Origin: Parvularcula sp. IMCC14364
GTDB lineage: Bacteria; Pseudomonadota; Alphaproteobacteria; Caulobacterales; Parvularculaceae
NCBI RefSeq assembly: GCF_030758415.1
Contig: NZ_CP132334.1
Coordinates: 806,001 to 870,000 of the forward strand
DNA: 64,000 nt
Direction of reading: 5' to 3'
The notes beneath the pieces were generated by a model. The model did not search any database, was not told the DNA's origin, and saw only the letters and a program-made list of their open reading frames with translations. The position numbers and the translations under genes are program-made. Below, piece after piece: positions 37,190-61,611 of the stretch. Position 1 is the first letter of the stretch, and each line of letters starts with the position of its first letter.

Positions 37190-37244
37190 TGAAATTACTG
37201 GCGACCCCGACAGGATTCGAACCTGTGGCCCCCAGATTAGGAAT
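37190..37244 (-). pseudogene. 3' half of tRNA-Arg(CCU), attachment-site remnant
   Basis: On the minus strand, 37244 to 37199 reads as a tRNA from anticodon loop to CCA: loop TTCCTAA (anticodon CCU), stem strand TCTGG, variable GGGCC, T-arm ACAGG-TTCGAAT-CCTGT, acceptor CGGGGTC, discriminator G and encoded CCA. The 5' half is missing: the sequence right of 37244 no longer pairs with the anticodon stem beyond one base. A 3' tRNA half ending at the anticodon loop next to an integrase gene is the hallmark of an attachment site left by an integrated island. The intact tRNA should lie to the right of the island and is not in this window. Confidence 0.85.
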
Positions 37245-37291
37245 GTGAAGACTGACGGTATATTCGCTTTCCTGGCATTACACAGAGAAAC

Positions 37292-37370
37292 AATTATCAG
37301 CAAAATGCTTATACATAGAGATATTGAAATACCTGATAATTCTTCCCATGTGGTAGCATGGTGGTAGCAC
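37292..37370. repeat. integrase-proximal inverted and direct repeats
   Basis: AATTATCAG (37292-37300) is the inverse of CTGATAATT (37333-37341). Next to it GTGGTAGCA occurs twice with an 11-bp period (37350-37358 and 37361-37369). These lie between the tRNA-derived core and the integrase start, where arm-type sites for the recombinase or its directionality factor are expected. Function is inferred from position only. Confidence 0.45.
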
Positions 37371-37404
37371 GTTACTTGGCGTTGATGAATCAGGAGCCGT
37401 TACA

Positions 37405-38556
37405 TTGACAGATACTATTACAAAAAGGCGCGTTGATGCCGCCAAGCCGGGCGAGACGATTTGGGATCGCAAATTGAGCGGTTACGGCCTTCGGGTCTCT
37501 AAGGGTGGAACAAAATCCTATTGCTTAAAGTTTAGAAGTGGCGCGGTTCAGAGATGGTTGACAATTGGCAGGCACGGACCATTTACGCCTGAAACTGCCC
37601 GAAAGGAGGCGCAGCGCCTGTTGGCTGAAATTTCGCTAGGGAATGATCCAGTTGCAACACGGCAGCAGGCTGCAAAGTCCGAAACTGTGGGTCAGTTTGC
37701 TGAGCGGTACATGCGCGAACATGCAATCCCAACTAAAAAGCCACGCTCAGTAGAGGAAGACCACCGTAATCTGCGTCTACATATATTTCCTTTCATTGGC
37801 AAAATGAAAATTGGTGAAGTAAAGCGTGAACACATAGCCAAGATTATCAATAAAATGAGCGACAGGCCTTACGGAGCAAATCGGGTGCTAGCGCTCTTGT
37901 CTCATATGTTTACAAAAGCTGAGGCGTGGGGCGTCAGGCCCGACTATTCAAACCCATGCCGTCACATCAAGAAATTCAAAGAATCGAAGCGTGAACGGTT
38001 TTTGAATCAAGATGAATTGATCCGGCTTGGAGAGGCGTTAATAGAAGCGGAAAGCGAAGGAGAAAGCCCGTACGTCATTGTTGCAGTCAGGCTGCTTTTA
38101 CTCACCGGAGCCCGCCTTAGTGAAATTCTGACCCTGAAATGGACCGATGTTGACATTGAGGCACGTTTAATTCGTTTGTCAGACTCTAAAACTGGCAAGA
38201 AAACAATCGTTGTTCCAGCTCCCGCCCTTGATTTGCTTTCCGCATTGCCAAAAATGAAGAATAATCCGTACGTCATATGTGGGATGAAAGATGGAACTCA
38301 CCTTGTCAATTTGCAAAGACCATGGAGGCGGATTAGAGCAAGGGCAGGTCTTAAAGATGTTCGACTGCACGACTTACGCCACAGTTTTGCGTCGTTTGCT
38401 GTCGCGGGCGGCATGTCACTTCCATTGATTGGCTCACTACTTGGTCATAGCCAACCGCAAACAACGGCACGGTATGCTCATTTAGCTGATGATCCACGCC
38501 ATGCTGCGGCAGCAGCTGTTGCTGAGAATATTGCGGCAAGTATGGCAGGAAAATGA
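37405..38556 (+). CDS. tyrosine recombinase, island integrase
   Basis: A 383-residue site-specific recombinase of the P4/tRNA-island type. Residues about 1-85 are the DUF4102 arm-binding domain ('KPGETIWDRKLSGYGLRVS'), 95-175 the core-binding helical domain, and the C-terminal catalytic domain carries Arg237 ('TGARLSEIL'), Lys262, His322-x-x-Arg325 ('HDLRHSFAS'), His348 and Tyr357 ('TARYAHL'). All catalytic residues are present, so it may be active. The start is a TTG with GGAG eight bases upstream. It reads away from the tRNA-Arg fragment, placing the island to its right. Confidence 0.95.
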   Translation: MTDTITKRRVDAAKPGETIWDRKLSGYGLRVSKGGTKSYCLKFRSGAVQRWLTIGRHGPFTPETARKEAQRLLAEISLGNDPVATRQQAAKSETVGQFAERYMREHAIPTKKPRSVEEDHRNLRLHIFPFIGKMKIGEVKREHIAKIINKMSDRPYGANRVLALLSHMFTKAEAWGVRPDYSNPCRHIKKFKESKRERFLNQDELIRLGEALIEAESEGESPYVIVAVRLLLLTGARLSEILTLKWTDVDIEARLIRLSDSKTGKKTIVVPAPALDLLSALPKMKNNPYVICGMKDGTHLVNLQRPWRRIRARAGLKDVRLHDLRHSFASFAVAGGMSLPLIGSLLGHSQPQTTARYAHLADDPRHAAAAAVAENIAASMAGK

Positions 38557-38769
38557 TGAGTGATTTTAAGAAGGCGAATTACTGCTGGCAACTGCGTCAG
38601 TCACATAGAAAATGATACGCTTGAACACGCGGAATTCATGGTTTTATTGATGCTGAAATTCAGTACCTTTTTCACGTTGAAATTCTTATGCAAAAATAAT
38701 TGTTACCGGTGAAAATAAATTCAGTGATGGGACAATATATTGTCCAAGGTATAGAATTTATTCCACTCA

Positions 38770-39069
38770 TTAAGAGACGAAGAATCCGACTTGTGATGCC
38801 CTGATCAGTTGAGCAGCTTCTACGACGGCATTCAGGTGCTGCTTTGATACATCGCCACTGGTTCTGTAGTAGTCATGGATATAATCCGCCAAGCCGGGAA
38901 AGCGACCAGCAAATACTACGGCTTGTAGTTTTACTTCCTTATCATCCAACTCTAGTTCGCCCCTGATCCATTCGTCATATGTCTGTGCGAGTTCAAGAAA
39001 GGCTTCTCGGTCCTTTTTATGATTTTCTCTTGAATGCCTTCTAATGAATTCGAGGCTTGTTTTATCCAT
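38770..39069 (-). CDS. small hypothetical protein
   Basis: A 99-residue, charged, mainly helical protein ('RENHKKDREAFLELAQTYDEW') with no signal or membrane segment. It resembles no family I can name. It lies beside the integrase on the opposite strand and shares the AT-rich composition of the island. Coding potential is judged from the even amino-acid mix; the ribosome-binding site is weak. Confidence 0.5.
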   Translation of the reverse strand: MDKTSLEFIRRHSRENHKKDREAFLELAQTYDEWIRGELELDDKEVKLQAVVFAGRFPGLADYIHDYYRTSGDVSKQHLNAVVEAAQLIRASQVGFFVS

Positions 39070-39275
39070 GGCGGTTCTGCGTTAGCGTTATGTGGGGTTC
39101 AGAAATTATTTATCCCAAATATGTATTGGACGCATCCTCTTATGGTAAACTTGTTGCGCGTCTATGGCCTCTCTGTCGGTGCGTATATGCGCGGTGCCGC
39201 TTTGTCAGTGCCGACGCCCCGAGCCAGCAAGTTCTCAAATCAGGTGCTGCTATGCAGAAGAATACTAACTAAACC

Positions 39276-39326
39276 CGCTCAAGCCTTGTGCCACAGCAGA
39301 GCCCATTTTCCGGCTGGGCTTGAGCG
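39276..39326. repeat. 10-bp inverted repeat in a 320-bp gene-poor gap
   Basis: CGCTCAAGCC (39276-39285) pairs with GGCTTGAGCG (39317-39326) across 31 bases, with minor internal pairing. No T run follows on either side, so it is not a standard terminator. The rest of the gap (39070-39389) holds only an open frame at 39034 that lacks a ribosome-binding site. Confidence 0.4.
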
Positions 39327-39389
39327 ATTATCATCGCTATCGGTGCAGCATCATCGAAAGATAATAAATTATTGTTCGGAGGTTGAAGT

Positions 39390-39623
39390 ATGGCGATCTT
39401 CGATATTGAAAAGGATGACTTGCTTCGCTTGTTCGATGATCGATTGGGTGAAAAATACAATAATATCAATGAGTTAATGGTGTTCGTGTGCGCTATGTGT
39501 GCGGTCAGAAATAGTCAGTACTCTGCTGAAGTGAGTGGCTGGAATAAAAAACTTCAGCTAAATTTCGAAGAAACTAGGAAGCACGTCATTGCCGTGACAC
39601 GGAAAACTACCCCTTCGCCGTGA
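39390..39623 (+). CDS. small hypothetical protein
   Basis: A 77-residue protein with a strong GGAGG site seven bases before its ATG. It begins 'MAIFDIEKDDLLRLFDDRLGE' in part and has a short hydrophobic patch ('VFVCAMCAV') too short to call a membrane helix. No family recognised. It stands alone between the integrase region and the glucan-utilisation genes, which are on the opposite strand. Confidence 0.55.
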   Translation: MAIFDIEKDDLLRLFDDRLGEKYNNINELMVFVCAMCAVRNSQYSAEVSGWNKKLQLNFEETRKHVIAVTRKTTPSP

Positions 39624-39767
39624 CCCTCCCACTTCAAACCAACCATATTCTTAGCACTCGTGGCTGCGTTCAATGGGGAAGCAGACCTGCTCCGCTTGTG
39701 GTCTGTTTGGTTAGACCCCGCCAATCCTACTTTAAATCGGTTGATTTATGTTTTTACGTATAGGGTG

Positions 39768-40808
39768 TTAGCGCGGCTGCATGGCTAACTTTGGTGAGCG
39801 ATCTACGTAAAATAAACCCCAGTGCTTCTCGGCCCCTAGCGGATCATTCGGGTCTCCTTTCCATGGTTCGTCGAACGCTTCAAAGAAGAAAACTGTCGTA
39901 TTTGTGTCCCGCGCCCAAGAGGAAATGTCTGTAAAATATCGGAGTTGCTTTTCTTCACTGGCCCTCGGGCCGAACTCACTTGCAATTGTGGCCCATCCAG
40001 CTTCGAGAATAGCAATCGTCTTACCCGGCAGAGCTTGCTGCACGCCAAGGATGTTCTCTGCAGTGTACTCAAGGCCGTCTTCTGTATCGCGCTCTTCCCA
40101 AATGGGATATGTATGTACGCCAATGAAATCCAGTTCGTTAGCTAGGGGTAAGCCGCTCTCAATCCACCAGGCATAATTTTCTGCGACTGTAACGGGTTGT
40201 GATGTTCGAGACTTCACATCTCTTACATAGGCAATCACTTGATCCACAGGAACCATATGATCTGTCCAAGAGACGAGTGCTTCATTGCCGATATTTATAG
40301 CGATGATGATGTCGCTGAACGTGGTGGCTAAGTCGATCCCTCGTTCGATTTCTTCGGAATTTCGAATCTTGTTACCTGCAAGCCTCTCGACAGAGATAGG
40401 CTCAGTGAGCCATGGGCACCCTTCGTGATTGCTAAGTTCAGCGTCAAGCCAGATGCCTAAAAGTACCTTGATAGGAAGGCGTTCTTCGCGAATGATTTCA
40501 AGAGTAGTCTTGGCATTTTCACCTGAATCATAAAGCCGGATCAAGGTAAATTCATTGTCTATAAGTATTTTCAAGTCCTCGAGGATTTCCGCTCGACTCG
40601 GGTTATTGGCACCGGCCCCTCGATCTGGATACTGACCTTCTCGAAAACCAGAGTATGCAATTGCCATAGTCTCGCCGGCAATTAAGTCACTTTTTGATTG
40701 CATGTAATTTACCCCGCTAACTGGTATTTCCTCACTCGCCTTTGGCTCACACGCAGAAATGCAACAAAACAGGATCAATGAAATCGCATATAATATTTTA
40801 TCGCGCAT
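39768..40808 (-). CDS. GH17-like beta-1,3-glucanase lipoprotein
   Basis: A 346-residue glycoside hydrolase of family 17 type (clan GH-A barrel). The signal ends in 'CCISAC' with Cys20 lipidated, so it is anchored in the envelope. The acid/base is Glu176 in 'INIGNEALV' and the nucleophile Glu269 in 'AILEAGWAT', the standard pair for this family. GH17 enzymes cut or transglycosylate beta-1,3-glucans such as laminarin. It lies downstream of a second, cytosolic GH17 gene on the same strand (76-bp gap), so the two probably share an operon under the LacI operator at 41834. Confidence 0.85.
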   Translation of the reverse strand: MRDKILYAISLILFCCISACEPKASEEIPVSGVNYMQSKSDLIAGETMAIAYSGFREGQYPDRGAGANNPSRAEILEDLKILIDNEFTLIRLYDSGENAKTTLEIIREERLPIKVLLGIWLDAELSNHEGCPWLTEPISVERLAGNKIRNSEEIERGIDLATTFSDIIIAINIGNEALVSWTDHMVPVDQVIAYVRDVKSRTSQPVTVAENYAWWIESGLPLANELDFIGVHTYPIWEERDTEDGLEYTAENILGVQQALPGKTIAILEAGWATIASEFGPRASEEKQLRYFTDISSWARDTNTTVFFFEAFDEPWKGDPNDPLGAEKHWGLFYVDRSPKLAMQPR

Positions 40809-40884
40809 ATCTCTTTAACCTCTAAGTTATTCTCGCGTCGCTCATGCTTAGGCAACTGATTGAAATTTTTGCATGAAAAGATAT

Positions 40885-41775
40885 TTATAATGAATATTTA
40901 GGCGCGCCGTCCTTATCCCAAAGCCCCCAAAAGGCACCAACATCTCCCTCTTTTTCAATTTTCCAAGACTCGTCGAACGAAGAAAAATAGAAAATTTCGA
41001 TTCCTTCCTCCTCAGCCCACTGGTAAGCATCAATGAAATAACTCATAGCATTCTCAGGGGATGGAACAGCGCTTTCTTCCGGCGTGCCTACATTTGGCCA
41101 ACCGGTTTCGGCTATCACCACTTTTTTGCCGTCGGAGACACGTTGGGCGCGGCGATACATCTCTCTCATGTAAATATGTGCATGCTCAGCTGGATATCCC
41201 TCCCAGAAAGGGTAGCAATTGACTAGAATAGTCTCGCAGGCTGCCGCTACACGTGGGTGGTCTTCGAACTTGAAATAAGCATCAACGTAGCCAACTGGAA
41301 TAGCCCCAACCGCCGCTTTGGCGCGTTCGATGTAATCTATCAATTCTTCTTCAGATATTTCATCGCGCAGTAGCACTTCGTTACCAATAGCCAAAATATC
41401 AGCATGTCCCGCTTTGGCGATGTCTATTGCATTTTCGAGTTCAAGTTCATTCCGCTCTCTGTCGTCATCAATCCAGGCGCCAACCATCGTTTTTAGGCCA
41501 CAGGACTTAGCGATCTCCGGGATATACTCATTTCCATCTGTACACGAGAAAGTACGCACCCAGTTCACAAATGGCACGATGATTCTTATTCTTTCGGAGA
41601 TTTGTGCCTTAGAGATAACAGACCCTGGGCCTTGATTATCAACATATGGACTGAAAGAAATGCCATGGAACTTGTCGTTACGAATCTGATTGAACGCGAC
41701 TAGCAGGTTTTGTCGGTCCTTCGGTTGAGCTGGACTGTGGTAATGGAGTTTCCCATCGTAGTACTTTTTAGACAC
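40885..41775 (-). CDS. GH17-like beta-1,3-glucanase, cytosolic
   Basis: A 296-residue family-17 type hydrolase without a signal peptide. It has 'FHGISFSPY' at the first strand, acid/base Glu133 ('LAIGNEVLLR') and nucleophile Glu223 ('VIAETGWPNV'). The start is GTG with AGGA just upstream. Its cytoplasmic location, opposite to its lipoprotein paralogue, suggests it acts on laminari-oligosaccharides after import, alongside the unsignalled GH3 enzyme. It is divergent from the GH16 gene with a LacI-type operator in between. Confidence 0.87.
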   Translation of the reverse strand: MSKKYYDGKLHYHSPAQPKDRQNLLVAFNQIRNDKFHGISFSPYVDNQGPGSVISKAQISERIRIIVPFVNWVRTFSCTDGNEYIPEIAKSCGLKTMVGAWIDDDRERNELELENAIDIAKAGHADILAIGNEVLLRDEISEEELIDYIERAKAAVGAIPVGYVDAYFKFEDHPRVAAACETILVNCYPFWEGYPAEHAHIYMREMYRRAQRVSDGKKVVIAETGWPNVGTPEESAVPSPENAMSYFIDAYQWAEEEGIEIFYFSSFDESWKIEKEGDVGAFWGLWDKDGAPKYSL

Positions 41776-41833
41776 TTTCCTGTCCTGAGCTTTCTAAGGG
41801 CACGGATTGCACATACTCGAAGCGATCAAAAAT

Positions 41834-41845
41834 GACAACGTTGTC
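41834..41845. promoter_or_regulatory. LacI-type operator between divergent GH17 and GH16 genes
   Basis: GACAACGTTGTC is a perfect 12-bp palindrome with the central CG typical of LacI-family sites. The identical 12-mer recurs at 47648-47659 before the TonB receptor, and a LacI-family gene lies in the same locus. Leftward, a TTGACG (41879-41874) could be the -35 of the GH17 unit, placing the operator near its transcription start; no convincing -10 was found. Confidence 0.8.
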
Positions 41846-41922
41846 TTCTCCGTTTTTTTCGACTATGGTGATGCGTCAAACACAATAGTAGATTGTGAAT
41901 TAAAAAAAATAGGGTGGAAAAA

Positions 41923-42870
41923 ATGTCAAAAAAGTATTGGCTGATGGTAGCTGCGATTGCCAGCTGCGTATTGGGCTATGGGGCGGTAGCGCTTGAGGCG
42001 GACGATGGGAATTGGGAGCTTGTTTGGTCCGACGAATTTAATGGTGATGAAATTGATTTCACCAAATGGTCTCATGAAGTCGATTGCTGGGGCGGCGGAA
42101 ACGAAGAGCGCCAATGTTACACTAAGAGACCTGAAAACTCATTCGTAGCAGATGGTTACCTTAATATTGTGGCCCGTTATGAAACAGCATCTGGTCCGGC
42201 CCTGCCTCGAAAAATGCGAGAAGGTCTATCCGTTGAAGAGAGACGCGCAAAAAAAGAGCAACCTTTTACGTCGGCTCGACTAAATACAAAGGGTAAAGCG
42301 GATTGGACTTACGGACGATTTGAGGTGCGGGCTAAAATGCCGAGGGGACAAGGCATGTGGCCAGCGATCTGGATGTTGCCAACTGAAGAGAAGTATGGCG
42401 CATGGGCGGCGTCTGGCGAAATTGACATTGCTGAGGTGGTAAACCTAGGTGCGAAGTGTGAGAAGTGTGAGGGGGGCTTGGAAAACAGTGTTGTTGGCAC
42501 AGTTCACTACGGCGGTGAATGGCCTCGTAATAAATACAAGGGCGACGAAACTGAACTGCCACCGTCAGATGAAGGTTTTCATGTTTACTCCGTTGAATGG
42601 CGGGAAGGATCGATTTCTTGGTTCGTGGACGGAATGCATTATTCTACCCTGACATCCAAAGACTGGGGGCCGCAGGCAATGTTTACAAAGCTACCCCCAA
42701 ATTCTCCATTCGACCAACCTTTTCATATGATACTAAACGTCGCAATAGGTGGTCATTTACCTGAAGCTGAGAACGAAGGTGGCGTCTCTTTGTTAGGCTT
42801 CCCAAAGGCTATGCAGGTTGACTGGGTTCGAGTGTACAAAAAAAGCGCCCACGATTCAGGTGATCTCTGA
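41923..42870 (+). CDS. GH16 laminarinase
   Basis: A 315-residue exported glycoside hydrolase of family 16. The start at 41923 follows AGGGTGGA; a GTG at 41914 would overlap that site. The signal peptide is about residues 1-24. The catalytic motif is Glu166-Ile-Asp168-Ile-Ala-Glu171, the beta-bulge (ExDxxE) form typical of laminarinases, and 'WPAIWMLP' and 'FHVYSVEW' are substrate-cleft segments. It is expected to cut beta-1,3-glucan endolytically outside the cytoplasm. It starts a plus-strand operon with a transporter, GH3 enzyme and the LacI regulator, and its stop overlaps the transporter start. Confidence 0.93.
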   Translation: MSKKYWLMVAAIASCVLGYGAVALEADDGNWELVWSDEFNGDEIDFTKWSHEVDCWGGGNEERQCYTKRPENSFVADGYLNIVARYETASGPALPRKMREGLSVEERRAKKEQPFTSARLNTKGKADWTYGRFEVRAKMPRGQGMWPAIWMLPTEEKYGAWAASGEIDIAEVVNLGAKCEKCEGGLENSVVGTVHYGGEWPRNKYKGDETELPPSDEGFHVYSVEWREGSISWFVDGMHYSTLTSKDWGPQAMFTKLPPNSPFDQPFHMILNVAIGGHLPEAENEGGVSLLGFPKAMQVDWVRVYKKSAHDSGDL

Positions 42871-44312
42871 TGGAGACTACCAAGCCTGAAGACCGGGTGC
42901 CATTGTTTCAGAAACTTGTTTATGGATCCGGGGCTTTTGTAAATAATCTCCTTGCTGGTTCGATTGGCGGGATGATGATTGTCCTCAATTTGGGCTTGGG
43001 AATGAACCCGGCGCTCGTCGGTTTGTTGGGGGCGCTCCCACGCTTTTTTGATGCGCTAACCGACCCGCTGATGGGCTATATTTCGGACAATACCAGAACG
43101 CGGTGGGGAAGGAGAAGGCCCTACATATTTGTTGGCGCTATTCTTGTTGGGATCATTTTCATCGCCTTATGGCAATTGCCGGAAGGGCAAAGTGAGACGT
43201 TTTATTTTTGGTATTTCCTAATAGGCTCCTTGGCATTCTACCTTGCTTACACAATTTTTGCGACGCCATGGGTTGCTCTGGGATATGAAATGACGCCGGA
43301 TTATAACGAGCGCACCCGATTAATGGGTACCCAGAATTTTATTGGTCAGTTGGCATACTTTATCCCGCCGTGGCTTCTCCTTATTATGCAATGGGACGTA
43401 TTATTCGACGATATGGTCGAAGGGGCCGCTGGTGTTGCGATAGTTATCGGTGTCTTCGTCATTGCAGCAGGCGTTTTGCCGGCGATTTTCCTCCGTGAGC
43501 GCGTGCCCTCCGGAAATCCAGGTGACAAAGCCCAGGCAGCCAAGACTATAGGTATTTCAGCGCGCGTTGCTGATTTCGCGCTTGGTTTCTACAGGGCATT
43601 GAAGTTTTTGCCATTTTTGAAGCTCTGCATTGCAACATTTCTTGTATTTAATGGTTTCATTCTGATCGCTGCATTCCAAACGTATGTCATAATTTACTAT
43701 GTTTTTGACGGAGATCAGGTGGCTGGCGCAACCTATGCGGGGTATGCTGGGACGGTCGCTACATTTTCAACCTTTGGCGTCATCGCATTTATAACCTGGG
43801 TTGGGACAAAAATCGGAAAGAGGAAAGCGTTTGCGCTTTCGACAGCAATTTCAATGATTGGTTATGCATTGAAATGGTTCTGTTATAGTCCGGAATATCC
43901 AATTCTCGTCCTCCTTCCCGCGCCTCTGATTGCATTTGGGCTCGGGGGACTTTTTACGCTGATGCCATCGATGATGGCCGATGTTGTGGATATGGATGAG
44001 TTGAAAACAAATCAACGCCGCGAGGGAATGTTTGGTTCGATTTACTGGTGGGTTGTCAAGCTGGGTATGGCAGCTGCACTTGCTGGTGGTGGATTTTTGC
44101 TCAATGCCACCGGTTTCGATGTCGCGTTAGGTGGCGATCAAAGTGAGCGAACAATTGTACTTTTGCGGCTGTTTGACGCATTTGTTCCTGTCGTCGCTTC
44201 TGGCATTGCAATCTGGGCGGTTGCAACTTTTGGTATTACGAAGGAAAAGGCCCGCGAAATTAGACGAGAGCTTGAGGGCCGTCGTGGTGTCGTGCCTAGC
44301 GTGTCCGAGTAG
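42870..44312 (+). CDS. GPH-family sugar transporter
   Basis: A 480-residue, twelve-helix major-facilitator protein of the glycoside-pentoside-hexuronide:cation symporter family. The motif 'DALTDPLMGYISDNTRTRWG' near residue 70 and the following 'RRRPYIFVGA' are diagnostic. Placed between the exported GH16 and the cytosolic GH3 and GH17 enzymes, it probably moves laminari-oligosaccharides across the inner membrane. It overlaps the GH16 stop by one base, and GH3 follows after 17 bp. Confidence 0.92.
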   Translation: METTKPEDRVPLFQKLVYGSGAFVNNLLAGSIGGMMIVLNLGLGMNPALVGLLGALPRFFDALTDPLMGYISDNTRTRWGRRRPYIFVGAILVGIIFIALWQLPEGQSETFYFWYFLIGSLAFYLAYTIFATPWVALGYEMTPDYNERTRLMGTQNFIGQLAYFIPPWLLLIMQWDVLFDDMVEGAAGVAIVIGVFVIAAGVLPAIFLRERVPSGNPGDKAQAAKTIGISARVADFALGFYRALKFLPFLKLCIATFLVFNGFILIAAFQTYVIIYYVFDGDQVAGATYAGYAGTVATFSTFGVIAFITWVGTKIGKRKAFALSTAISMIGYALKWFCYSPEYPILVLLPAPLIAFGLGGLFTLMPSMMADVVDMDELKTNQRREGMFGSIYWWVVKLGMAAALAGGGFLLNATGFDVALGGDQSERTIVLLRLFDAFVPVVASGIAIWAVATFGITKEKAREIRRELEGRRGVVPSVSE

Positions 44313-44329
44313 AATCGGAGTCAAGGTGT

Positions 44330-46540
44330 ATGATAAAATCAATGAGTGTGGCTTTGGAAAAGAATAGAGGGAAAGACCTCTGGGCTACTCTTCAAAAGAT
44401 GAGCCTGCGTGACAAGATCGGACAATTGCGACAGGTTGATGGTTCGGGGGGGCGATCTGATGCATCACTCCTTGAAGCCATTCGCCATGGTAGGGTTGGT
44501 TCAGTCATTAACGTTGTCGATCCAGATCTGGTAAATGAGTTACAAGAAATTGCACTTCATGAAAGCCCTGCTGGAGTCCCGCTTGTATTTGCCCGGGATG
44601 TGATTCACGGCTTCAAAACAATTTTCCCGATACCACTCGGTCAAGCCGCGACTTGGGATACTGATCTTGCGAGAGAAGCGGCCCATCTTGCAGCATTAGA
44701 AGCTTATGCTGTCGGAATACGTTGGACATTTGCTCCCATGATTGATGTTTCGCGTGACCCGAGATGGGGGCGCATCGCTGAGAGTTTTGGGGAGGACCCT
44801 CTTCTGAATGCGCTATTCGGGCGGGCTATGATAGATGGGTTTCAGGGAAATGATTTGAGTGCCGAAGGGTCTATCGCTGCCTGTGCTAAGCATTTTGTTG
44901 GGTATGGTGATTCCGAAGCGGGTATAGATTACGGCTCAACTAATGTGTCGGAATTCGAACTGCGCAATGTTCATCTGGAGCCATTCAGAGCAGCCGTCGC
45001 AGCAGGTGTGGCATCCGTGATGTCATCTTTAAGTGATGTGGATGGTATACCTGCAACTGCGCATAGGGACCTTATACGCGGTGTGTTGCGTGACGAATGG
45101 GGTTTTGCTGGTCTTGTAGTAAGTGACTGGGATTCCGTTAAGCAATTGTCCGTTCATGGTATAACTTCTGATGATAAAGAGTCTGCCTATCAGGCGGCAG
45201 AGGCTAGAATCGATGTGGAGATGACTAGCGATACATATGAGAATCACCTTGCTGACTTGGTCAGCTCCGGCCAGATTGGCATTGAGGCGGTTGATTCTAT
45301 GGCCATGAGTGTTCTCAAGTTCAAAAAGAATCTTGGTCTTTTCGATAGACCGTATACACCTAAGAACTACAAATCAGGAATTTCTGAGGCGGAAATTAAA
45401 GACTGTGCCCGCCGTCAGGCATCAGAGAGCTTTATTCTATTAAAAAATAGTGATTCTGTCCTTCCGCTTAATCAAAAGAAGCTTTCTTCTATTTGTCTTG
45501 TCGGTCCTATGGCTGACCAAGATCGAGAACAGTTAGGTACTTGGGTATTTGACGGTGATCCGGCGCGGAGTGAGACGCCATTAAAGGCATTTCAAGATCT
45601 ATTGCAGCCAGATTGCGAGGTGTTGTTTGAAAAAGGTCTGGCGACAACGCGATCAAGCTGTGCTGAATTGGCGGACTTCGCTGTTGAGAAGGCGCAACAC
45701 GCGGACGCGGTTGTGGCTATCATTGGCGAAGAGGCTATATTGTCCGGCGAAGCTCATTGCCGTGCTAACATCGATCTACCTGGTGAACAGGTGGAATTGA
45801 TCAGACGTCTGAAGGCTACAGGTAAAACTATCATCGTTGTAATTCTATCGGGGCGCCCTTTGACGATCGGCGACCTGTTGCCACATGCTGATGCGGTTTT
45901 GTTTGCTTTGCATCCTGGAACTATGACGGGACCAGCCATTTGTGATTTATTATTTGGCCATAAGGCACCTTCTGGAAAGTTGCCTTTTACATTGCCCAAG
46001 TCCGTTGGGCAGGTGCCAATTTACTATAGCAAGAAGAATGGGGGCCGTCCTGCGACGCATGACAGCATCATGTCTATTGATGATATTCCGGCAGGCGCCG
46101 AGCAAACATCTTTTGGCATGACGGCTTTTCACCTTGATGATGGGTTTGAGCCACTATTCCCTTTTGGTTTTGGTTTGTCGTATACAGAGTTTACTTATAG
46201 CGATCTTCATATTCTCTCGAATGAACTGTCCCGAGGTGGGGAGCTGCATGTGTCCGTTTGTGTTAGGAATACAGGATTGCAAGATGCTTTTGAAGTGGTG
46301 CAACTTTATACGCGTGACCGTGTCGGAAGTGTTACGAGGCCGGTTAAAGAGTTGAAGGCCTTCAATAGAGTTCTTGTCCGCTCTGGAGAGGCCCAAACAA
46401 TGCGTTTCTCATTATCCCGGGAAGATTTGTCTTTTTATCGTAGGTGTAGGGAATATGGAGTAGAGGCTGGAGAGTTTGACTTATGGGTGGGGGGGTCTTC
46501 GCAGGCTGACTTGCATGTGACCTTCGAAATTGATGCCTGA
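44330..46540 (+). CDS. GH3 beta-glucosidase, cytosolic
   Basis: A 736-residue family-3 beta-glucosidase with no signal peptide. The N-terminal barrel has 'FARDVIHGFKTIFPIPLG', 'DPRWGRIAESFGEDP', 'CAKHFVGYG' and the nucleophile Asp266 in 'LVVSDWDS'. The second domain carries 'ILLKNSDSVLPL', and a C-terminal fibronectin-III-like domain follows. It should remove glucose from imported beta-glucan oligosaccharides, feeding glucokinase and the downstream Entner-Doudoroff genes. Its end overlaps the LacI gene by 11 bases. Confidence 0.93.
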   Translation: MIKSMSVALEKNRGKDLWATLQKMSLRDKIGQLRQVDGSGGRSDASLLEAIRHGRVGSVINVVDPDLVNELQEIALHESPAGVPLVFARDVIHGFKTIFPIPLGQAATWDTDLAREAAHLAALEAYAVGIRWTFAPMIDVSRDPRWGRIAESFGEDPLLNALFGRAMIDGFQGNDLSAEGSIAACAKHFVGYGDSEAGIDYGSTNVSEFELRNVHLEPFRAAVAAGVASVMSSLSDVDGIPATAHRDLIRGVLRDEWGFAGLVVSDWDSVKQLSVHGITSDDKESAYQAAEARIDVEMTSDTYENHLADLVSSGQIGIEAVDSMAMSVLKFKKNLGLFDRPYTPKNYKSGISEAEIKDCARRQASESFILLKNSDSVLPLNQKKLSSICLVGPMADQDREQLGTWVFDGDPARSETPLKAFQDLLQPDCEVLFEKGLATTRSSCAELADFAVEKAQHADAVVAIIGEEAILSGEAHCRANIDLPGEQVELIRRLKATGKTIIVVILSGRPLTIGDLLPHADAVLFALHPGTMTGPAICDLLFGHKAPSGKLPFTLPKSVGQVPIYYSKKNGGRPATHDSIMSIDDIPAGAEQTSFGMTAFHLDDGFEPLFPFGFGLSYTEFTYSDLHILSNELSRGGELHVSVCVRNTGLQDAFEVVQLYTRDRVGSVTRPVKELKAFNRVLVRSGEAQTMRFSLSREDLSFYRRCREYGVEAGEFDLWVGGSSQADLHVTFEIDA

Positions 46541-47591
46541 GTTATCTAATGCAAAGCGCGCTGGAGCTGCGACCATTGTTGATGTCGCGCGATCGGCGGG
46601 TGTTTCAATAAAAACTGTGTCAAGGGTAATCAATAACGAGGTTTCTGTACGGCAAAGTACACGTGCAAAAGTCGTCGAGGCGATAGAGCATCTCGGTTAT
46701 AAGAGAAACCTGTTTGCAAGAAGTCTGCGGGCGGATAAGTCCTTCGCTTTCGGATTGCTTTATGAAAACCCGCAAGGCGACTACTCTGCGGACATTTTGC
46801 ATGGCGCGCTTAGCGCCTGCCAAGAAAGAGGTTACCACCTGGTTGTGGAAATTGTGTCAGATAATGACCTTTCAAGTCAGGTTGAAAGGTTTCTGGCTAC
46901 GACAAAAGTGGATGGCGTTTTTCTTACTCCGCCTGTTTGCGATGACCCCGGGGTTTTGAGTGTTTTGGAGCGAACCGCGACTCCGTTTGTTCGGATATCG
47001 CCTCTTAATCCTGCGGCTGGTGAGCCTTACGTGGCTATTAATGATTTTGAGGCGGCGCGAGAAATCACAAACTATCTCCTTTCTCTTGGTCATATGCGAA
47101 TTGGACATATTGCAGGCCCAGCAAACCATCATTCCGCAAGGGAGCGTCACCGCGGATATCAAACAGCCTTAGAGGAAGCGGGGATAGTATATGATGATTG
47201 CTTGGTTTTGCCGGGAAACTTTAATTTCGATTCTGGCAAGAAAGCCGCAGGTACATTTTTCGCTTTAGATGAGCCGCCAACTGCTATTTTTGCATCTAAT
47301 GATCAGATGGCAGCCGGCGTGCTGGCGCGCGCTCATGAACTAAAGATACAAATTCCCGATGAGTATTCTCTCGTCGGCTTCGATGGAGGCACGATTTCGG
47401 AGGTTGTCTGGCCGAGGCTGACAACAATTAATCAATCAGTTCGCGGCCTTGGGGTAGATGCGATCAGATTGCTCGTAAATATCAGCGAGGACCCGGATAT
47501 TGAGCGCGAGCCTGTTTTTTTACCGTATGAAATGAAGTTTGGAGCATCAACATCGCGGTTAGAGCATGCTCCAAGAGCAGGTAAGTCCTGA
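46530..47591 (+). CDS. LacI-family repressor of the glucan locus
   Basis: A 353-residue LacI/GalR regulator. The helix-turn-helix and hinge lie at about residues 15-60 ('TIVDVARSAGVSIKTVSRV', then 'VVEAIEHLGYKRN'), followed by a periplasmic-binding-protein-like sensor domain ('AIFASNDQMAAGVLARAHE', 'EYSLVGFDGG'). A second Met at 46533 could be the start. It is coupled to GH3 by overlap. The two identical palindromes at 41834 and 47648 are its likely operators; glucose or a laminari-oligosaccharide is the likely inducer. Confidence 0.93.
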   Translation: MMPELSNAKRAGAATIVDVARSAGVSIKTVSRVINNEVSVRQSTRAKVVEAIEHLGYKRNLFARSLRADKSFAFGLLYENPQGDYSADILHGALSACQERGYHLVVEIVSDNDLSSQVERFLATTKVDGVFLTPPVCDDPGVLSVLERTATPFVRISPLNPAAGEPYVAINDFEAAREITNYLLSLGHMRIGHIAGPANHHSARERHRGYQTALEEAGIVYDDCLVLPGNFNFDSGKKAAGTFFALDEPPTAIFASNDQMAAGVLARAHELKIQIPDEYSLVGFDGGTISEVVWPRLTTINQSVRGLGVDAIRLLVNISEDPDIEREPVFLPYEMKFGASTSRLEHAPRAGKS

Positions 47592-47608
47592 CTGTTGCCT
47601 AAATGCAA

Positions 47609-47659
47609 TTGACGAAGATTTGCTATCGGCGCTATATTCCAAAAAAAGACAACGTTGTC
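47609..47659 (+). promoter_or_regulatory. promoter with LacI-type operator before the TonB receptor
   Basis: TTGACG (47609-47614) and TATATT (47633-47638) are separated by 18 bases, a good sigma-70 type promoter. The palindrome GACAACGTTGTC (47648-47659) lies at about the transcription start, the classical position for repression, and is identical to the one at 41834. Repression by the adjacent LacI protein is the natural reading. Confidence 0.8.
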
Positions 47660-47691
47660 ATAACTATAACTATAGCCGTGGGAGGCAAATT

Positions 47692-50469
47692 ATGAAGGGC
47701 TTAAGCAAACAATCTATATTAACGTCGCTGCTACTTTCGAGCTGTCTGGTAGCGCCAGCTGCGTTTGCGCAGGATGAGGAAGATGACCTGACTCTTCTCG
47801 AGGAAGAAGACGTAATCATCGTTACAGTTGAGCGCCGCGAGCAAAGTCTGCAAGATTATGCAGGTACAGCTGCCGTTTTTGATGGTGATGATCTTAAGGC
47901 CGTTGGTGTTCAAAACATACAAGACTTGGATGGTGAGGTCCCTGGGTTATCGATTTCAAATAATACCGGCAATATAGAAATCTACATCCGTGGTATTGGC
48001 TCCAGTAATAACACAGAGCTTGGCGACCCTGCCGGTGCGACGCACCTTAATGACGTTTATGTGCCTCGCCCATCTGGTTTTGGGGCGGCTTTCTTTGATA
48101 TCCAGCGTGTGGAAGTGAATCTTGGGCCACAGGGCACGTTGCGTGGCCGAAATGCTACGGCTGGCTCTGTTAACATCATTCCATGGAAGCCCGGTCTTGG
48201 TGTGCGCGACTTCATGCTCGAGGCATCATACGGTAACTTTGATGAAACAACTGTTGAAGGGATGGCAAACATTCCCCTAACAGATACGTCTGCATTCAGA
48301 ATTGCCGGTTTCTCTAAAGAGCATGACAGTTACTATAAAAGCGTGACGCCAGACAGTGCCGACTTGGGGCTAAGCATTCCTACTTCGGAGGCAGAAGGCG
48401 TTGGTGTTGCGGAAGCAGCTGACGACATGGGTTTTCGCGCCACATATCTCAACGAGCTTACCGACAGAGCTAAGCTAACTCTTACCTATGACTATATTGA
48501 GCAAAAGGGTACAGGTTATACCGGTACGAACTATGCTAATCCGTTAGGAAATGGTGTGAATCCAGAGGACATTTCTGACCCAAGAGAAGTGTTTGGGCGC
48601 GGGTTTACGCCTAGGGAAGATACAGAGCATTGGGGTTTTAAGGCGCACCTGGAATACGAGTTTGATAACTTTAACGTAGAATATATCGGTTCTTACCGAG
48701 ATTTGCTTTTTGATTTCGAGTTTATTACGCCTGCTGGTCCAAATTATGCGGGCGCTTTGGATACGTTCGTGCCGTTTGATTCTGTGTTCGATAATTTTAG
48801 TCGAGTAAAGTTTATCACGGATTCTGAATCTGTCGTTCACGAAATACGGCTTTTTGGTGAGGAGGAAAAATTCTTGTGGACAGCGGGCGCGTTCTACTTC
48901 CTTGAAAATCAGGCGACTTTCCTCGGCACTACCGGGGATAGAAATCCATTCTTTCAGGGGGTGGAGTTTAATCAGCGCACGGATACTGAGAGTCTCTCCT
49001 TCTATGGAGATGCTACCTATGATGTGAGCGACCGTTTCAGGTTGACTGGCGGCCTGCGCTACACAGAAGAAGAAAAGAACCGATTCGGAATAAATGCACG
49101 TTATGCTTTTGGTATCGGCGGTCCAGACTTTAGCTGCTGCTTCATAAACGGTGTGGCGCATGGTACTGAAGGGTTCCAGTTTACTGGGCTGGATCGGACT
49201 ATTTTTAATCCTGATACTAATGGTGATGGTCAAATTGATGCAAATGAATCCATCGCGTTCTTCTTTGATGGTATTCGCACGTTTGGCAACCGAGATGGTT
49301 TCGATGATGTTTTCCCGAATGGTCAGCAAATTCAGGATGTCTTTCCGGACCCGACCACAAGGCCTGAGTGTGAAGGGTCTTTCGCTTTTGTGGGTAGTTG
49401 TGCCAACTTCGTGCCCGATTTTGATGGCGTAATTGATTTCTCTCTGGCGCCGTTTAATTCTAGCTTCGCTATTCAAAACGGTAGTACTCAGGCTGACTTT
49501 TTGGACTGGCGTTTGCGGGCAGAATACGATTTGTCTGACGACAATCTCCTTTATGCGCTTGTTGCGACTGGCAACAAATCTGGTGGTTTTAACGATAACG
49601 TTGCAGATACTGATGGTATTGCAGTGGCTAGCCCTGCTGATAATGCTCCACAAGATTTTGACACTGACACTTTGGCACCGACATACAAAGAGGAGAGCGT
49701 AACTCTTTACGAGGTGGGGTCTAAAAACGAGTTCACTATTGGTGACGTCGATGCTACGTTTAATGCCACAGCATTTTTCTATGATTACGTAGATCTGCAG
49801 CTTACTAGTTTACAGTCCACCGCTCAGATTCTGCAATTTGAAGGTATTGATCTGACCGACGACCAAATAACTAGATTGGGAGGCCAGGTAAACAGTTTTA
49901 CGTTTAATGCTTCGGATGCTGAAATTTATGGTGCACAATTCGATGGTAGTTTACAGTTCCCTGGTAATTGGAACTTGAAAGCAAATCTGCTTTTCCTTGA
50001 AACGGAGATCGTTGGCTCTCAGGAGATCCAGGACAGCCGCTTTCAGGCAGATGTCTCTCCAACTGAAGCCGTGAACCAGTCCATTGAAGGTAACGAGTTA
50101 CCGAGGACACCAAACGTCCAGTTCAATGGTTCTGTATCTAAGGCGATTGAAACAGACACGGGTCGTTGGGACTTTATTGGGTCTGCTGGTTACCGTTCGT
50201 CACAGTTCATGACTTTTTTCAATGGTATTGACTATCAAAATCCAGATAATCCAAGGCTTCGTCTTAATGATAAAGTTGAAGGATATTGGACATTCGACGC
50301 TGGTGTTGGATACTCGCATGGTGATGACGACAAGCTTCGGTTTGAGGCGTACGTCAACAACCTGACAGACGAGCAACGTGAGCAAGCTATTATTATCACG
50401 CAGTTTGATAATACGCGCTTTTTCAACCGTCCACGTACATACGGTGTTAGAGCACGGGTTCGTTTCTAG
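47692..50469 (+). CDS. TonB-dependent receptor of the glucan locus
   Basis: A 925-residue receptor. The ATG at 47692 has a GGGAGG site and opens a clear signal peptide ending 'APAAFAQ'; an upstream in-frame extension to 47566 would run through the promoter and operator and is rejected. Plug segments 'VGVQNIQDLDGEVPGLSI' and 'LGPQGTLRGRNATAGSVNI' and a barrel ending in 'TYGVRARVRF' are typical. Position and the shared operator argue that it imports laminari-oligosaccharides across the outer membrane. It is closed by a terminator 20 bases downstream. Confidence 0.92.
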   Translation: MKGLSKQSILTSLLLSSCLVAPAAFAQDEEDDLTLLEEEDVIIVTVERREQSLQDYAGTAAVFDGDDLKAVGVQNIQDLDGEVPGLSISNNTGNIEIYIRGIGSSNNTELGDPAGATHLNDVYVPRPSGFGAAFFDIQRVEVNLGPQGTLRGRNATAGSVNIIPWKPGLGVRDFMLEASYGNFDETTVEGMANIPLTDTSAFRIAGFSKEHDSYYKSVTPDSADLGLSIPTSEAEGVGVAEAADDMGFRATYLNELTDRAKLTLTYDYIEQKGTGYTGTNYANPLGNGVNPEDISDPREVFGRGFTPREDTEHWGFKAHLEYEFDNFNVEYIGSYRDLLFDFEFITPAGPNYAGALDTFVPFDSVFDNFSRVKFITDSESVVHEIRLFGEEEKFLWTAGAFYFLENQATFLGTTGDRNPFFQGVEFNQRTDTESLSFYGDATYDVSDRFRLTGGLRYTEEEKNRFGINARYAFGIGGPDFSCCFINGVAHGTEGFQFTGLDRTIFNPDTNGDGQIDANESIAFFFDGIRTFGNRDGFDDVFPNGQQIQDVFPDPTTRPECEGSFAFVGSCANFVPDFDGVIDFSLAPFNSSFAIQNGSTQADFLDWRLRAEYDLSDDNLLYALVATGNKSGGFNDNVADTDGIAVASPADNAPQDFDTDTLAPTYKEESVTLYEVGSKNEFTIGDVDATFNATAFFYDYVDLQLTSLQSTAQILQFEGIDLTDDQITRLGGQVNSFTFNASDAEIYGAQFDGSLQFPGNWNLKANLLFLETEIVGSQEIQDSRFQADVSPTEAVNQSIEGNELPRTPNVQFNGSVSKAIETDTGRWDFIGSAGYRSSQFMTFFNGIDYQNPDNPRLRLNDKVEGYWTFDAGVGYSHGDDDKLRFEAYVNNLTDEQREQAIIITQFDNTRFFNRPRTYGVRARVRF

Positions 50470-50490
50470 TCACCATCGTATTTCCAAATC

Positions 50491-50527
50491 AACCCGCGAC
50501 CATATAGTTGGTTGCGGGTTTTTTTTT
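50491..50527 (+). terminator. strong rho-independent terminator
   Basis: AACCCGCGACC (50491-50501) pairs with GGTTGCGGGTT (50510-50520), with one G-T pair, around an 8-base loop, and an uninterrupted T run follows. It ends the receptor transcript and separates it from the zwf operon. Confidence 0.9.
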
Positions 50528-50558
50528 ATCACTTGGTGATTTATTCGGCGAGTAGGTC

Positions 50559-50572
50559 TATAATACTAGTAT
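50559..50572 (+). promoter_or_regulatory. -10 box overlapped by a palindrome before zwf
   Basis: A perfect TATAAT (50559-50564) lies 39 bases before the zwf ATG. The palindrome ATACTAGTAT (50563-50572) overlaps it and could be an operator for an unidentified regulator of the glucose operon. It does not match the GACAACGTTGTC site of the glucan genes. The -35 is weak (TTGGTG at 50533, 20-base spacing). Confidence 0.45.
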
Positions 50573-50602
50573 ACAGATTAAAACCACAGGGCTGGTGTTT
50601 AC

Positions 50603-52105
50603 ATGAACGGTCTCGAAGCGGATTCTTCTCCTCAACTATTACCCGTAAATGCCTTTGATATCGTTGTGTTTGGTGCTGCCGGTGATCTTGCCTTGCGCAA
50701 GCTGATTCCAGCATTGTTCCATCGCTGGCGAGATGGACAGATTCCAGAGAATTCCAAAATAGTTGGTACATCACGGGCGCAGATGTCGGATGATGAGTTT
50801 CGGCAACTTGCTCTGAACAGTTTCCGAAAGTTTCATCCCGCAGAGAAGGTAGACGACAACGAATGGGCTTCATTTAGCGGGCACATATTCTATGCGGGCC
50901 TTGATGCAACATCTGCAGATGCGAATTGGGCGCCATTACGAGAACGGCTGGATGATGACACCAGTAAACAGCGAGTTTTTTATCTTGCGCTTCCGCCTGG
51001 TATCTACGGTTCCGTTTGTCAAAACCTGGATAAAGCTGGTCTTAAATCTGATGGTGCACGAATCGTCCTGGAAAAACCTATCGGGAAAAACCTTGAGACA
51101 GCCCATGAAGTCAACGAGGCTGTCGGTGCGGTTTTTGAGGAGCATTCAATATTCCGTATTGATCACTATCTAGGAAAGGAAACTGTGCAGAACCTGATAG
51201 TTCTCCGTTTCATGAATTCTCTATTGGAACCAGTCTGGAATGCTAATGTCATAGATCATGTACAGATCACAGTAGCAGAAAGCATAGGTGCCGGTGGTCG
51301 TGCAAGTTACTACGATACTGCCGGAGCGCTGCGCGATATGGTTCAAAACCATCTCATGCAGTTGCTGTGCCTGGTAGCGATGGAACCTCCACTTGATCTT
51401 GAAGCTGATACGATTCGTGATGAGAAGATCAAGGTATTGCGTGCCCTGAGGCCAATCACTGCCGAGAATATAAGGCATGCGACAGTGCGCGGCCAGTATG
51501 AAGAAGGAGCACTACAGGGAGAGGCAGTACCCAGCTATGCAAGCGAACTGGGTAATTCAAGCAGTATTGAAACTTTCGTCGCCCTTAAGGCCAATATCGA
51601 CAACTGGCGCTGGAAGGGAACACCTTTTTATCTGCGTACTGGCAAGCGTATGCGCGAGCGGCGCTCAGAGATTATAATCCAATTTAAGAATGTAGCGCAT
51701 ACACTCGCGGCGCCGGAAGGTGATCAACTACAGCCAACCCGGCTTGTGATCCGGTTGCAACCGGATGAAGGTATGAGGTTAATGCTTGTTACTAAAGACC
51801 CTGGTCCTGGTGGCATGCGTCTTCGTTATGTGCCACTGAACCTCAGTTATGCTGATGCATTCTCCGCGCGGTACCCGGATGCCTATGAGCGACTGCTTAT
51901 GGCCGTCGTTCGCGGCAATCTTGGCTTATTCATGCGCCGCGATGAAGTAGAGGCTGCATGGAAATGGGTCGATAGCATCCTCGATGCGTGGAGCGGAGAT
52001 TCCACACCAATTCACAAATATGCTGCCGGTACTGACGGACCAGCTCAAGCTGCGATGATGCTTGATCGTGACAACCGGGAATGGTTTGATGGACTTCCTA
52101 CCTGA
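50603..52105 (+). CDS. zwf: glucose-6-phosphate 1-dehydrogenase
   Basis: A 500-residue enzyme oxidising glucose 6-phosphate to 6-phosphogluconolactone. The NADP-binding region 'IVVFGAAGDLALRKLIPAL' and 'RIVLEKPIGKNLETA' are present, and the active-site motif is Arg185-Ile-Asp-His-Tyr-Leu-Gly-Lys-Glu. 'LRTGKRMRERRSEIIIQFK' is the substrate-binding C-terminal segment. It is the first gene of a five-gene operon zwf-pgl-edd-glk-eda; its last 17 bases overlap pgl. Confidence 0.97.
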   Translation: MNGLEADSSPQLLPVNAFDIVVFGAAGDLALRKLIPALFHRWRDGQIPENSKIVGTSRAQMSDDEFRQLALNSFRKFHPAEKVDDNEWASFSGHIFYAGLDATSADANWAPLRERLDDDTSKQRVFYLALPPGIYGSVCQNLDKAGLKSDGARIVLEKPIGKNLETAHEVNEAVGAVFEEHSIFRIDHYLGKETVQNLIVLRFMNSLLEPVWNANVIDHVQITVAESIGAGGRASYYDTAGALRDMVQNHLMQLLCLVAMEPPLDLEADTIRDEKIKVLRALRPITAENIRHATVRGQYEEGALQGEAVPSYASELGNSSSIETFVALKANIDNWRWKGTPFYLRTGKRMRERRSEIIIQFKNVAHTLAAPEGDQLQPTRLVIRLQPDEGMRLMLVTKDPGPGGMRLRYVPLNLSYADAFSARYPDAYERLLMAVVRGNLGLFMRRDEVEAAWKWVDSILDAWSGDSTPIHKYAAGTDGPAQAAMMLDRDNREWFDGLPT

Positions 52106-52790
52106 GATTATTCAATTTGCTTCTAAAGAAGTGATGGCGGCGCGTCTGGCTGATGTGATTGAGGCTGAGTTGTCCCGGCACGACCGGTCTTCGATCGCCC
52201 TCTCTGGCGGCTCAACGCCCGCGCTGCTCTATGAGGTATTATCGCAGCGGCCTTGCCGCTGGTCGAGCGTGACTGGTTTGCTGGTCGATGAAAGATTAGT
52301 GCCGCCAACAGACAATGGTTCGAATGAGGCTTTCATCAACCGAACTCTACGGCAGCAAGAGGCAGTAAAGATGTCTTTATACGGGATGTGGCAGCCAGGT
52401 GCGAGCGCAGAACGCCTCGCGCAAATGCTTAATCACGAAATACCAGGACTGGCCTTGCCATTAGATGTTGTCATCTTGGGTATGGGAAATGATGGCCATA
52501 CGGCGTCATGGTTCCCGTATGCGAACGGCCTTGATGAAGCTTTGTCTGATAATGCGCCGGATGTTGTTGCAATTAAAGCGCAGGCCAGCGCCGTGACGGG
52601 TAACTATCTGGATCGCCTGACGCTCAGCTTACGGAAAGTAAGGGAGGCGCGGCGTATTTTTCTCCTGATTTCCGGAGAAGAAAAAATGAATACTTTTAAG
52701 TCCGCACTGCTAGAGGAACCAGTTGAAGCTATGCCTGTCCGCGCGATATTACGTGCACGACCTGACCTTTGGGTATGCTGGTCACCATAG
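52089..52790 (+). CDS. pgl: 6-phosphogluconolactonase
   Basis: A 233-residue lactonase of the DevB/NagB fold hydrolysing 6-phosphogluconolactone. The start at 52089 gives '[10 protein letters not shown]' and lies inside the zwf end with a GGGA site upstream; an ATG at 52062 is also open. Marks are '[16 protein letters not shown]', '[20 protein letters not shown]' and '[14 protein letters not shown]', the last carrying the substrate-binding Asp-Gly-His. It precedes edd by 10 bp. Confidence 0.94.
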
Positions 52791-52800
52791 GAGAGATGAT

Positions 52801-57678: not shown

Positions 57679-57815
57679 TAAATCTTGTGGACTAATGCGA
57701 GCGGTGATTCAAGATTTCACAGGAGGTTTTGCAAAGAGCGGTTTGATCTGGTTATCCCCGGGGCAGATCGAACGGATACAGCCTGACTTTCCTTAATCCC
57801 ATAGAATTCTGCTGG

Positions 57816-58490: not shown

Positions 58491-58750
58491 TCCCTGACGG
58501 GTTACAAAGTTGAATACTGACACAACGCAAATCAGGTCTCCTGCGTTTGGTGCACCGCTCGAATTGAATGGGTGAGTGCCAGCGCAAACTATGGTTTCAT
58601 CTCGTTGTTTCACGTTCTCAGGTTCAAAATAAACTAGCCTAGCCCAAGGCACTTGAGTTTCCTTAGTATCGGGATAGCCCTACCAGTCCAATTTTGGCTG
58701 GGGGGCCTGGCGATCAATAAGCAAATATGGCGCTGTTCCATCTTGGCAGT
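58491..58750. other. intergenic, no gene found
   Basis: No convincing ORF, terminator or terminal inverted repeat of the IS110 remnant was seen in this stretch; IS110 elements normally lack inverted repeats, so the element edge cannot be placed. Confidence 0.4.
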
Positions 58751-59173: not shown

Positions 59174-59252
59174 GTTCTCTGATCCATTCTTCCAATTGCG
59201 AGCCTTCTATGGTTAGATGAAAGCGTTAAACGGGCATGTCTGATGCAATCGG

Positions 59253-60494: not shown

Positions 60495-60545
60495 AATTCT
60501 TGAGGGATCTGTCACGAAAATTTGTCGATCAGAGTAACCAGAAAT

Positions 60546-61568: not shown

Positions 61569-61611
61569 TCAAACTACCCTGTTGAATTGCGATGCGTGCT
61601 GGTTAGGCAGA

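Follow-up and report, generated by a model that had tools for sequence, protein, structure and literature searches.

Element A, a 32.9-kb segment of the Parvularcula sp. IMCC14364 chromosome carrying predicted beta-glucan and Entner–Doudoroff genes, is bounded by displaced 3′ halves of tRNA-Arg(CCU), and a second element (B) lies between it and the intact tRNA gene. Taken as a whole, the observations make it fairly probable that A is an integrative island that entered at this tRNA, that B came later, and that A is now probably stuck. The window analysed is the 64,000-nucleotide stretch 806001–870000 of a single contig of 3,417,277 bases (a 3.42-Mb chromosome, judged 100% complete). The principal features are listed below, in window coordinates unless the chromosome is named.

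37199..37245, minus strand: frag1, displaced 3′ half of tRNA-Arg(CCU), the tRNA-distal att site of element A (sequence identity)
37351..37369, plus strand: pair of TGGTAGCA motifs at 37351 and 37362 (11-base spacing), putative arm-type sites (motif scan)
37405..38556, plus strand: tyrosine integrase of A, 383 codons, TTG start, complete (Pfam, alignment)
39768–40808, minus strand: GH17-like gene, below the Pfam cut-off (Pfam)
40885–41775, minus strand: GH17 gene (Pfam)
Within the glucan region 39768..50469: GH16, MFS_2 transporter, GH3, LacI regulator and TonB-dependent receptor genes (Pfam)
50603..56239, plus strand: Entner–Doudoroff genes zwf, pgl-like, edd, glucokinase and eda
42013..56205, plus strand: GH16-to-eda block, common to congeners G001 and G004 (DNA identity, gene order)
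Chromosome 843199–876086 (32.9 kb), window 37199..64000 and on to window coordinate 70086: element A, bounded by tRNA-Arg halves
Chromosome 874783–875984: insertion sequence of 1202 bases at the tRNA side of A, 55 bases from the repeat that flanks A
Chromosome 876087–932547 (56.5 kb): element B, bounded by the 876040 half and the intact tRNA

Two elements in tandem at tRNA-Arg(CCU)

Positions 37199–37244 of the window (minus strand) are identical at 46 of 46 bases to bases 32–77 of the intact tRNA-Arg(cct). The fragment thus defined, frag1, begins at the final base of the 5′ anticodon stem and takes in the seven-base anticodon loop and the rest of the tRNA through CCA. A first-pass annotation had described it as running from the anticodon loop to CCA; that description stands, but its start at 37190 was 9 bases too far to the left and one stem base has to be included. 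No whole tRNA was found inside the 64-kb window by ARAGORN, and an Rfam search of the region of frag1 and the integrase returned a weak microRNA-type match alone, far below the cut-off. When the 3,417,277 bases were searched with the 47-mer of frag1, allowing up to 3 mismatches, there were three copies; the backwards control gave 0, so that a chance match is excluded.

The three copies are all on one strand, at 843199 (frag1), 876040 and 932548. The last belongs to the intact tRNA-Arg(cct), chromosome 932548–932624 on the minus strand, 89 kb to the right of frag1. The copy at 876040 is a second displaced half, at window coordinate 70040 and 6 kb beyond the end of the window. Given the minus orientation of the tRNA, the 3′ fragments at the lower coordinates 876040 and 843199 are downstream of it. 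This is the arrangement of an Islander-type island, with an intact tRNA, fragments in the same orientation and an integrase inside the interval, and it is also that of a tandem array: A has frag1 and the integrase at 37405–38556, and B has the 876040 half and an integrase at 931226–932434. Because the next copy to the right of frag1 is another displaced half, there are two tandem elements, and the glucan and Entner–Doudoroff genes are on the first (843199–876086) alone.

The earlier annotation had seen no second copy of the tRNA 3′ end to the right inside the window, and had predicted that the island extends to the right and possibly carries the whole glucan and Entner–Doudoroff region, with an intact tRNA-Arg(CCU) and a second attachment copy to be sought beyond 64 kb. 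The chromosome bears this out in each respect, with the cargo genes lying between tRNA-Arg copies. The arrangements that would have spoken against it, an intact tRNA close to 38.6 kb that excluded the glucan genes or no such tRNA on the right, were not found.

A perfect 50-base repeat, extending 4 bases beyond CCA, is common to the two halves that flank A, and the portion of A outside the window is its last 6 kb. The G+C content is 48.4% in A and 52.8% in B, compared with 53.2% to the left and 56.5% to the right of both islands and 51.7 and 52.4% in two other chromosomal stretches.

The integrase of B is adjacent to the intact tRNA, and shows no match to that of A at E 0.001. B contains coupling and type IV secretion genes (T4SS-DNA_transf, T2SSE, CagE_TrbE_VirB, TrbL, CagX and TrbI). 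The sole relaxase candidate among the B proteins scanned is a DUF3363 protein (PF11843), a family that we take to be linked to relaxases. B is therefore like the integrative and conjugative elements in its integrase, coupling protein and Trb/VirB-like secretion genes, but differs from those with a clear relaxase in having the DUF3363 candidate alone. It is best described as a conjugative-type element, whose transfer is predicted from its genes. A TGAACCTA motif is repeated at both ends of B; the two ends have four 9-mers in common, a number that shuffles also reach (mean 0.26, maximum 6). A 41-base perfect piece of tRNA-Met (bases 30–70, minus strand) is present in B at chromosome 876375–876415 (window coordinate 70375–70415), 289 bases from the 876040 half, and no whole matching tRNA-Met occurs in B. 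This piece might point to a chimeric B or to past use of tRNA-Met by B.

How does this site appear in relatives? In comparisons of the tRNA neighbourhood and of anchor genes, matches covering less than 30% of the query were dropped. The two genes upstream of the tRNA also adjoin it in five of seven relatives by protein comparison; in the other two, G001 and G004, the first upstream gene reaches the contig ends, by DNA comparison. The downstream side of the tRNA has neither A nor B in any of the seven. In G004 the tRNA is intact and the gene upstream of it is the same (75.8% DNA identity over 906 bases), but the downstream genes differ from those to the left of frag1. The genes left of frag1 are beside the tRNA in none of the seven relatives, and no unoccupied site with matching genes on both sides was found among them. 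The downstream genes differ from one relative to another, save that G001 and G004 have some in common, and that G002 and G005 have two in common at unequal distances from the tRNA. An ancestral empty site was thus not recovered, the downstream genes being variable across the relatives examined. The uvrB and NfeD-like genes were tried as anchors and rejected, their distance from the tRNA not being kept among relatives; gene order is strongly shuffled across the genus. In G001 an 11-kb prophage-like element (contig C59, 5913–17036) directly follows tRNA-Arg(CCU), with a 17-base copy of the tRNA end on its far side, and this element is absent from G004. It uses a different sublocation in the same tRNA, and from these sequences the tRNA-Arg(CCU) site is a hotspot.

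Two further genes lie to the left of frag1: one encoding a protein of 2260 aa (window 30126–36908) with cadherin-like, FG-GAP, RTX calcium-binding and weak subtilase matches, and, to its left, a TIR-domain gene (window 28093–29637).

The integrase of A, its family and the putative arm sites

Pfam assigns four models to the integrase of A: Phage_integrase, Arm-DNA-bind_3 and two for N-terminal or central domains, a SAM-like one among them. R237, K262, H322, R325, H348 and Y357, which we take to be the catalytic six of the tyrosine integrases, do not vary across 11 aligned sequences. With its complete reading frame, the gene is intact with all its catalytic residues, as the first-pass annotation had stated. 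The start of the gene faces the att half, 159 bases away. A promoter and terminator scan between the att half and the gene revealed no promoter-like site, with no excess over shuffles. The layout nevertheless recalls the KplE1/IntS type, in which the promoter overlaps the att region, and by analogy the gene may be self-repressed. In the KplE1/IntS survey, predicted self-regulated integrase genes have a mean att-to-start distance of 208–228 bases, and the integrases covered are beside intact tRNA genes, whereas that of A adjoins a displaced half (PMC2951348).

How general is this layout? Among the first 11 relatives, 7 have a clear tRNA half near the integrase, 1 has a weak 21-base match and 3 have none. 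We then took as homologues the best 80 of 581 matches, all from named genomes, leaving out 7 loci with <300 bases upstream. Of the 73 testable loci from these best 80 of 581, 44 carry, no more than 600 bases upstream and on the opposite strand, the displaced 3′ half of a tRNA gene, compared with 1/71, 0/62, 0/77 and 0/61 in control windows. Forty-one of these 44 halves are 156–257 bases from the start of the integrase match. All 80 loci of the best 80 of 581 together give 46 with a 3′ half and 3 with a whole tRNA, and 31 with no tRNA match in a library of 54 tRNAs. Where a matching intact tRNA occurs within the 10-kb flanks, it is beyond the integrase, on the opposite strand and 5.6–10.4 kb away in 10 of 10 loci (best 80 of 581). 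The displaced half upstream is thus a trait of the integrase family.

The tRNA target varies. The 44 halves (best 80 of 581) derive from tRNA-Met in 27 cases, Lys in 5, Thr in 4, Arg(cct) in 2 and six others once each, and close homologues in G014 and G030 adjoin tRNA-Asn halves. We found no integrase phylogeny that tracks the target: in a quick tree that draws on the best 80 of 581, omitting 2 of the 80 for stops or frame, there are at least 19 target changes over 51 labelled of 88 rows. The three whole tRNA genes that stand directly upstream of the integrase in place of a half (L210 9768–9843, L214 9725–9800 and L219 9589–9661) perhaps reflect elements carrying an entire tRNA gene, or a different mode of integration. 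In addition, G015 (C1:2771797–2771839), G014 (C60:24791–24829) and G027 (C12:115331–115370) each contain the 5′ half of a gene resembling tRNA-Arg(CCU), 98–100% identical to the query, as if some elements had displaced the 5′ side.

Between frag1 and the integrase gene is the TGGTAGCA pair, the sole such tandem pair in 144 kb scanned. Within 180 bases upstream of the integrase, 43 of 80 loci (best 80 of 581) contain two exact copies of an 8-base motif spaced 9–13 bases apart, whereas in 20 shuffles the count averaged 0.9 and never exceeded 4; the spacing is 11 bases in 34 of the 43 pairs in this best 80 of 581. In 8 of the 10 complete elements from the same best 80 of 581 the pair recurs 64–89 bases from the tRNA end, with 0/100 shuffles as good in each, and the two elements that fail this two-end test are L168 and L216. 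On this pattern the motif pairs, TGGTAGCA in A, are probably arm-type sites of the integrase.

At the other end of A the pair is missing. Near the 876040 half 96–100 of 100 shuffles do as well, and a scan of the rest of A that allowed up to 3 mismatches found no second pair. A thus does not have a pair at each of its two ends, as a mobile member of the family would, although this absence is not decisive because 2 of the 10 complete elements also fail. The place is now taken by the insertion sequence at 874783–875984, 100% identical to a copy at 1375779–1376980, which has inverted ends and no target duplication visible by eye. The sequence on its other side looks, in our reading, like the start of a cut-short IS110 reading frame. 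A partial copy is found inside B at 901521–902511 (99% over 991 bases). On the simplest interpretation, the tRNA-side arm of A was lost in a deletion caused by insertion-sequence activity. Because the insertion sequence occupies the expected site of those motifs, A is probably stuck, no longer able to excise by its own integrase. An intact integrase is therefore no proof of a mobile island.

Cargo of element A and its location in congeners

The components of a laminarin-type beta-glucan locus, as predicted from the genes, are present together on A: glycoside hydrolases, receptor, transporter and regulator. A is predicted to encode beta-glucan degradation and uptake, together with the Entner–Doudoroff genes. 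The genome contains a single match each for edd (E 1e-150) and G6PD_C (PF02781, for zwf; E 0.001), and both are on A. A search with the PF00365 phosphofructokinase family alone found no match here or in 5 congeners, and matches in 9 of 14 control genomes. A also encodes another transporter, a phospholipase, a lytic transglycosylase, and caspase-like and TIR proteins, and contains an IS110 gene and transposase genes of two families. Genes for RyR-domain, patatin phospholipase, lytic transglycosylase, caspase-like and TIR proteins are found at window 58751–64000 and chromosome 870176–870697, and are possibly a defence cluster. The patatin phospholipase resembles CBASS effectors in PADLOC. When 8 proteins, 7 from A, were scanned against a defence library, TIR and phospholipase-effector matches alone were obtained and no complete system.

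We compared 14 edd-bearing stretches from 13 relatives, some of them incomplete at their ends, dropping matches that cover <40% of the query here and in the G001 junction comparison. G001 and G004 have GH16 to eda in the same gene order; the remaining stretches have Entner–Doudoroff genes without glucan genes. The congeners G002 (C1:568339–574030) and G005 (C1:352428–358118) are examples, with zwf-pgl-edd-glk-eda and an edd about 65% identical, and thus the Entner–Doudoroff part can stand alone. G003, judged 99% complete, has no edd at E 1e-150 and no G6PD_C at E 0.001.

The block occupies three locations in three species. In G004 it sits between two genes, presumably phosphoenolpyruvate-carboxylase-like and cyanophycinase-like from their translations, whose junction is unoccupied in G001. 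In G001 it is on a different contig from that junction, beside two other chromosomal genes that we take to be accD-like and folC-like. The block of this genome is about 77% identical in DNA to that of G004 over 14.2 kb, where other DNA common to the two ranges from 75–76% to 81.5%; between G001 and G004 the block is 87.9% identical and the adjacent DNA 84–89%. Its G+C content is low in all three genomes, at 49.5–49.8%. Since the block lies elsewhere in two congeners and its divergence is about that of the chromosome, it would have moved within the lineage rather than arrived recently from afar; on these comparisons it looks old in this lineage, and relocated. No tRNA was seen near the block in G004, and thus it appears able to travel by other means.

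History of the region and its alternatives

We infer the following order of events for A as an island. Its integrase would have carried out a crossover between the anticodon loop of the tRNA gene and a matching element site. The 3′ half supplied by the element would then have restored the tRNA, and the original 3′ half would have ended up at the far end, next to the integrase gene. B, with a different integrase, would later have inserted into the rebuilt tRNA, pushing A one step outward. With the insertion sequence now at the expected place of the tRNA-side arm sites of A, self-excision would probably have been lost. Several observations count against A as an island: no unoccupied site with matching genes on both sides was found in the seven relatives, the block moved in G004 with no tRNA seen nearby, and no promoter-like site was found between the att half and the integrase gene. 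Size also counts against it, since complete members of the family span 5.6–10.4 kb (10-kb flanks; best 80 of 581) and A is 32.9 kb. That difference is one ground for thinking that A might be a fusion, in which a small family element (frag1, the integrase and a few kb) was joined by an insertion-sequence-mediated deletion to the right end of another at the 876040 half, the block having come by another route. The missing motif pair at the 876040 end, the insertion sequences that fill that end and the presence of the block at non-tRNA places in G001 and G004 all fit such a fusion. Yet A contains neither a third integrase nor an internal tRNA-Arg half, and the 50-base repeat around it fits a single event, so that we regard the fusion as rather unlikely.

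Could A and B instead form a single composite island of 89 kb, mobile as a whole, with the middle half as a relic? They have the same orientation and the same tRNA, and excision between frag1 and the tRNA would remove both. However, each part has its own integrase, the G+C contents differ (48.4 and 52.8%), and B has its own TGAACCTA at both ends, although the count of four common 9-mers is within the shuffle range. On the two integrases and the differing G+C we judge the single island very improbable. That the region is resident chromosome with unrelated relics of the tRNA is more improbable still. The divergence of the block from its congeners does resemble that of chromosomal DNA, but the halves are exact, with three genomic copies of the 47-mer against 0 in the control, and there is an integrase in each element. 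The location of the block differs in each of the three congeners, with the place used in G004 unoccupied in G001, and G003 is without edd or zwf matches. We therefore rejected chance relics in a resident chromosome.

A as an island that preceded B belongs to a well-known kind. Of the 3919 islands listed by Islander, 2083 are of the anticodon type, and 125 tandems with at least two members are recorded; like these A and B have an intact tRNA, same-orientation 3′ halves and an integrase for each element (PMC4383910). A differs from the islands as described there in having its integrase at the tRNA-distal end beside the displaced half, and a cargo with the sole zwf and edd found in the genome. 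The tandem also resembles CIME-type accretion, in which a conjugative and a non-conjugative element meet at one att site, as B and A do at one tRNA, but A and B have unlike integrases. By this analogy mobilisation of A by B is a possibility. What is added here is the cargo and its three locations, the family-wide layout with its motif pairs, and an arm that A has probably lost. A search of titles and abstract openings found no title naming this case, and we do not claim that it is absent from print.

The displaced half together with the motif pair upstream of the integrase provides a simple rule for finding and sizing islands whose integrase is far from the intact tRNA. Such islands would be missed by searches for integrases beside tRNA genes.

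A central sugar pathway is less ordinary cargo. Here central sugar catabolism, beyond accessory functions, is on an island-type segment, and congeners hold the block elsewhere or are without edd and zwf matches. We tentatively suggest that the pathway from beta-glucan to pyruvate (receptor, hydrolases, transporter, regulator and Entner–Doudoroff enzymes, in a genome with no PF00365 match) is a single itinerant block, which may be in a tRNA island in this species and in two unrelated places in congeners, and which may have been fixed here by an insertion sequence replacing the tRNA-side arms. It would ride with a widespread alphaproteobacterial integrase family in which the gene is tRNA-distal beside the displaced half, 11-base-spaced arm pairs are at both ends, and the tRNA target is frequently switched. 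This distribution makes the genus a natural setting in which to test how a core pathway is acquired, relocated and fixed.
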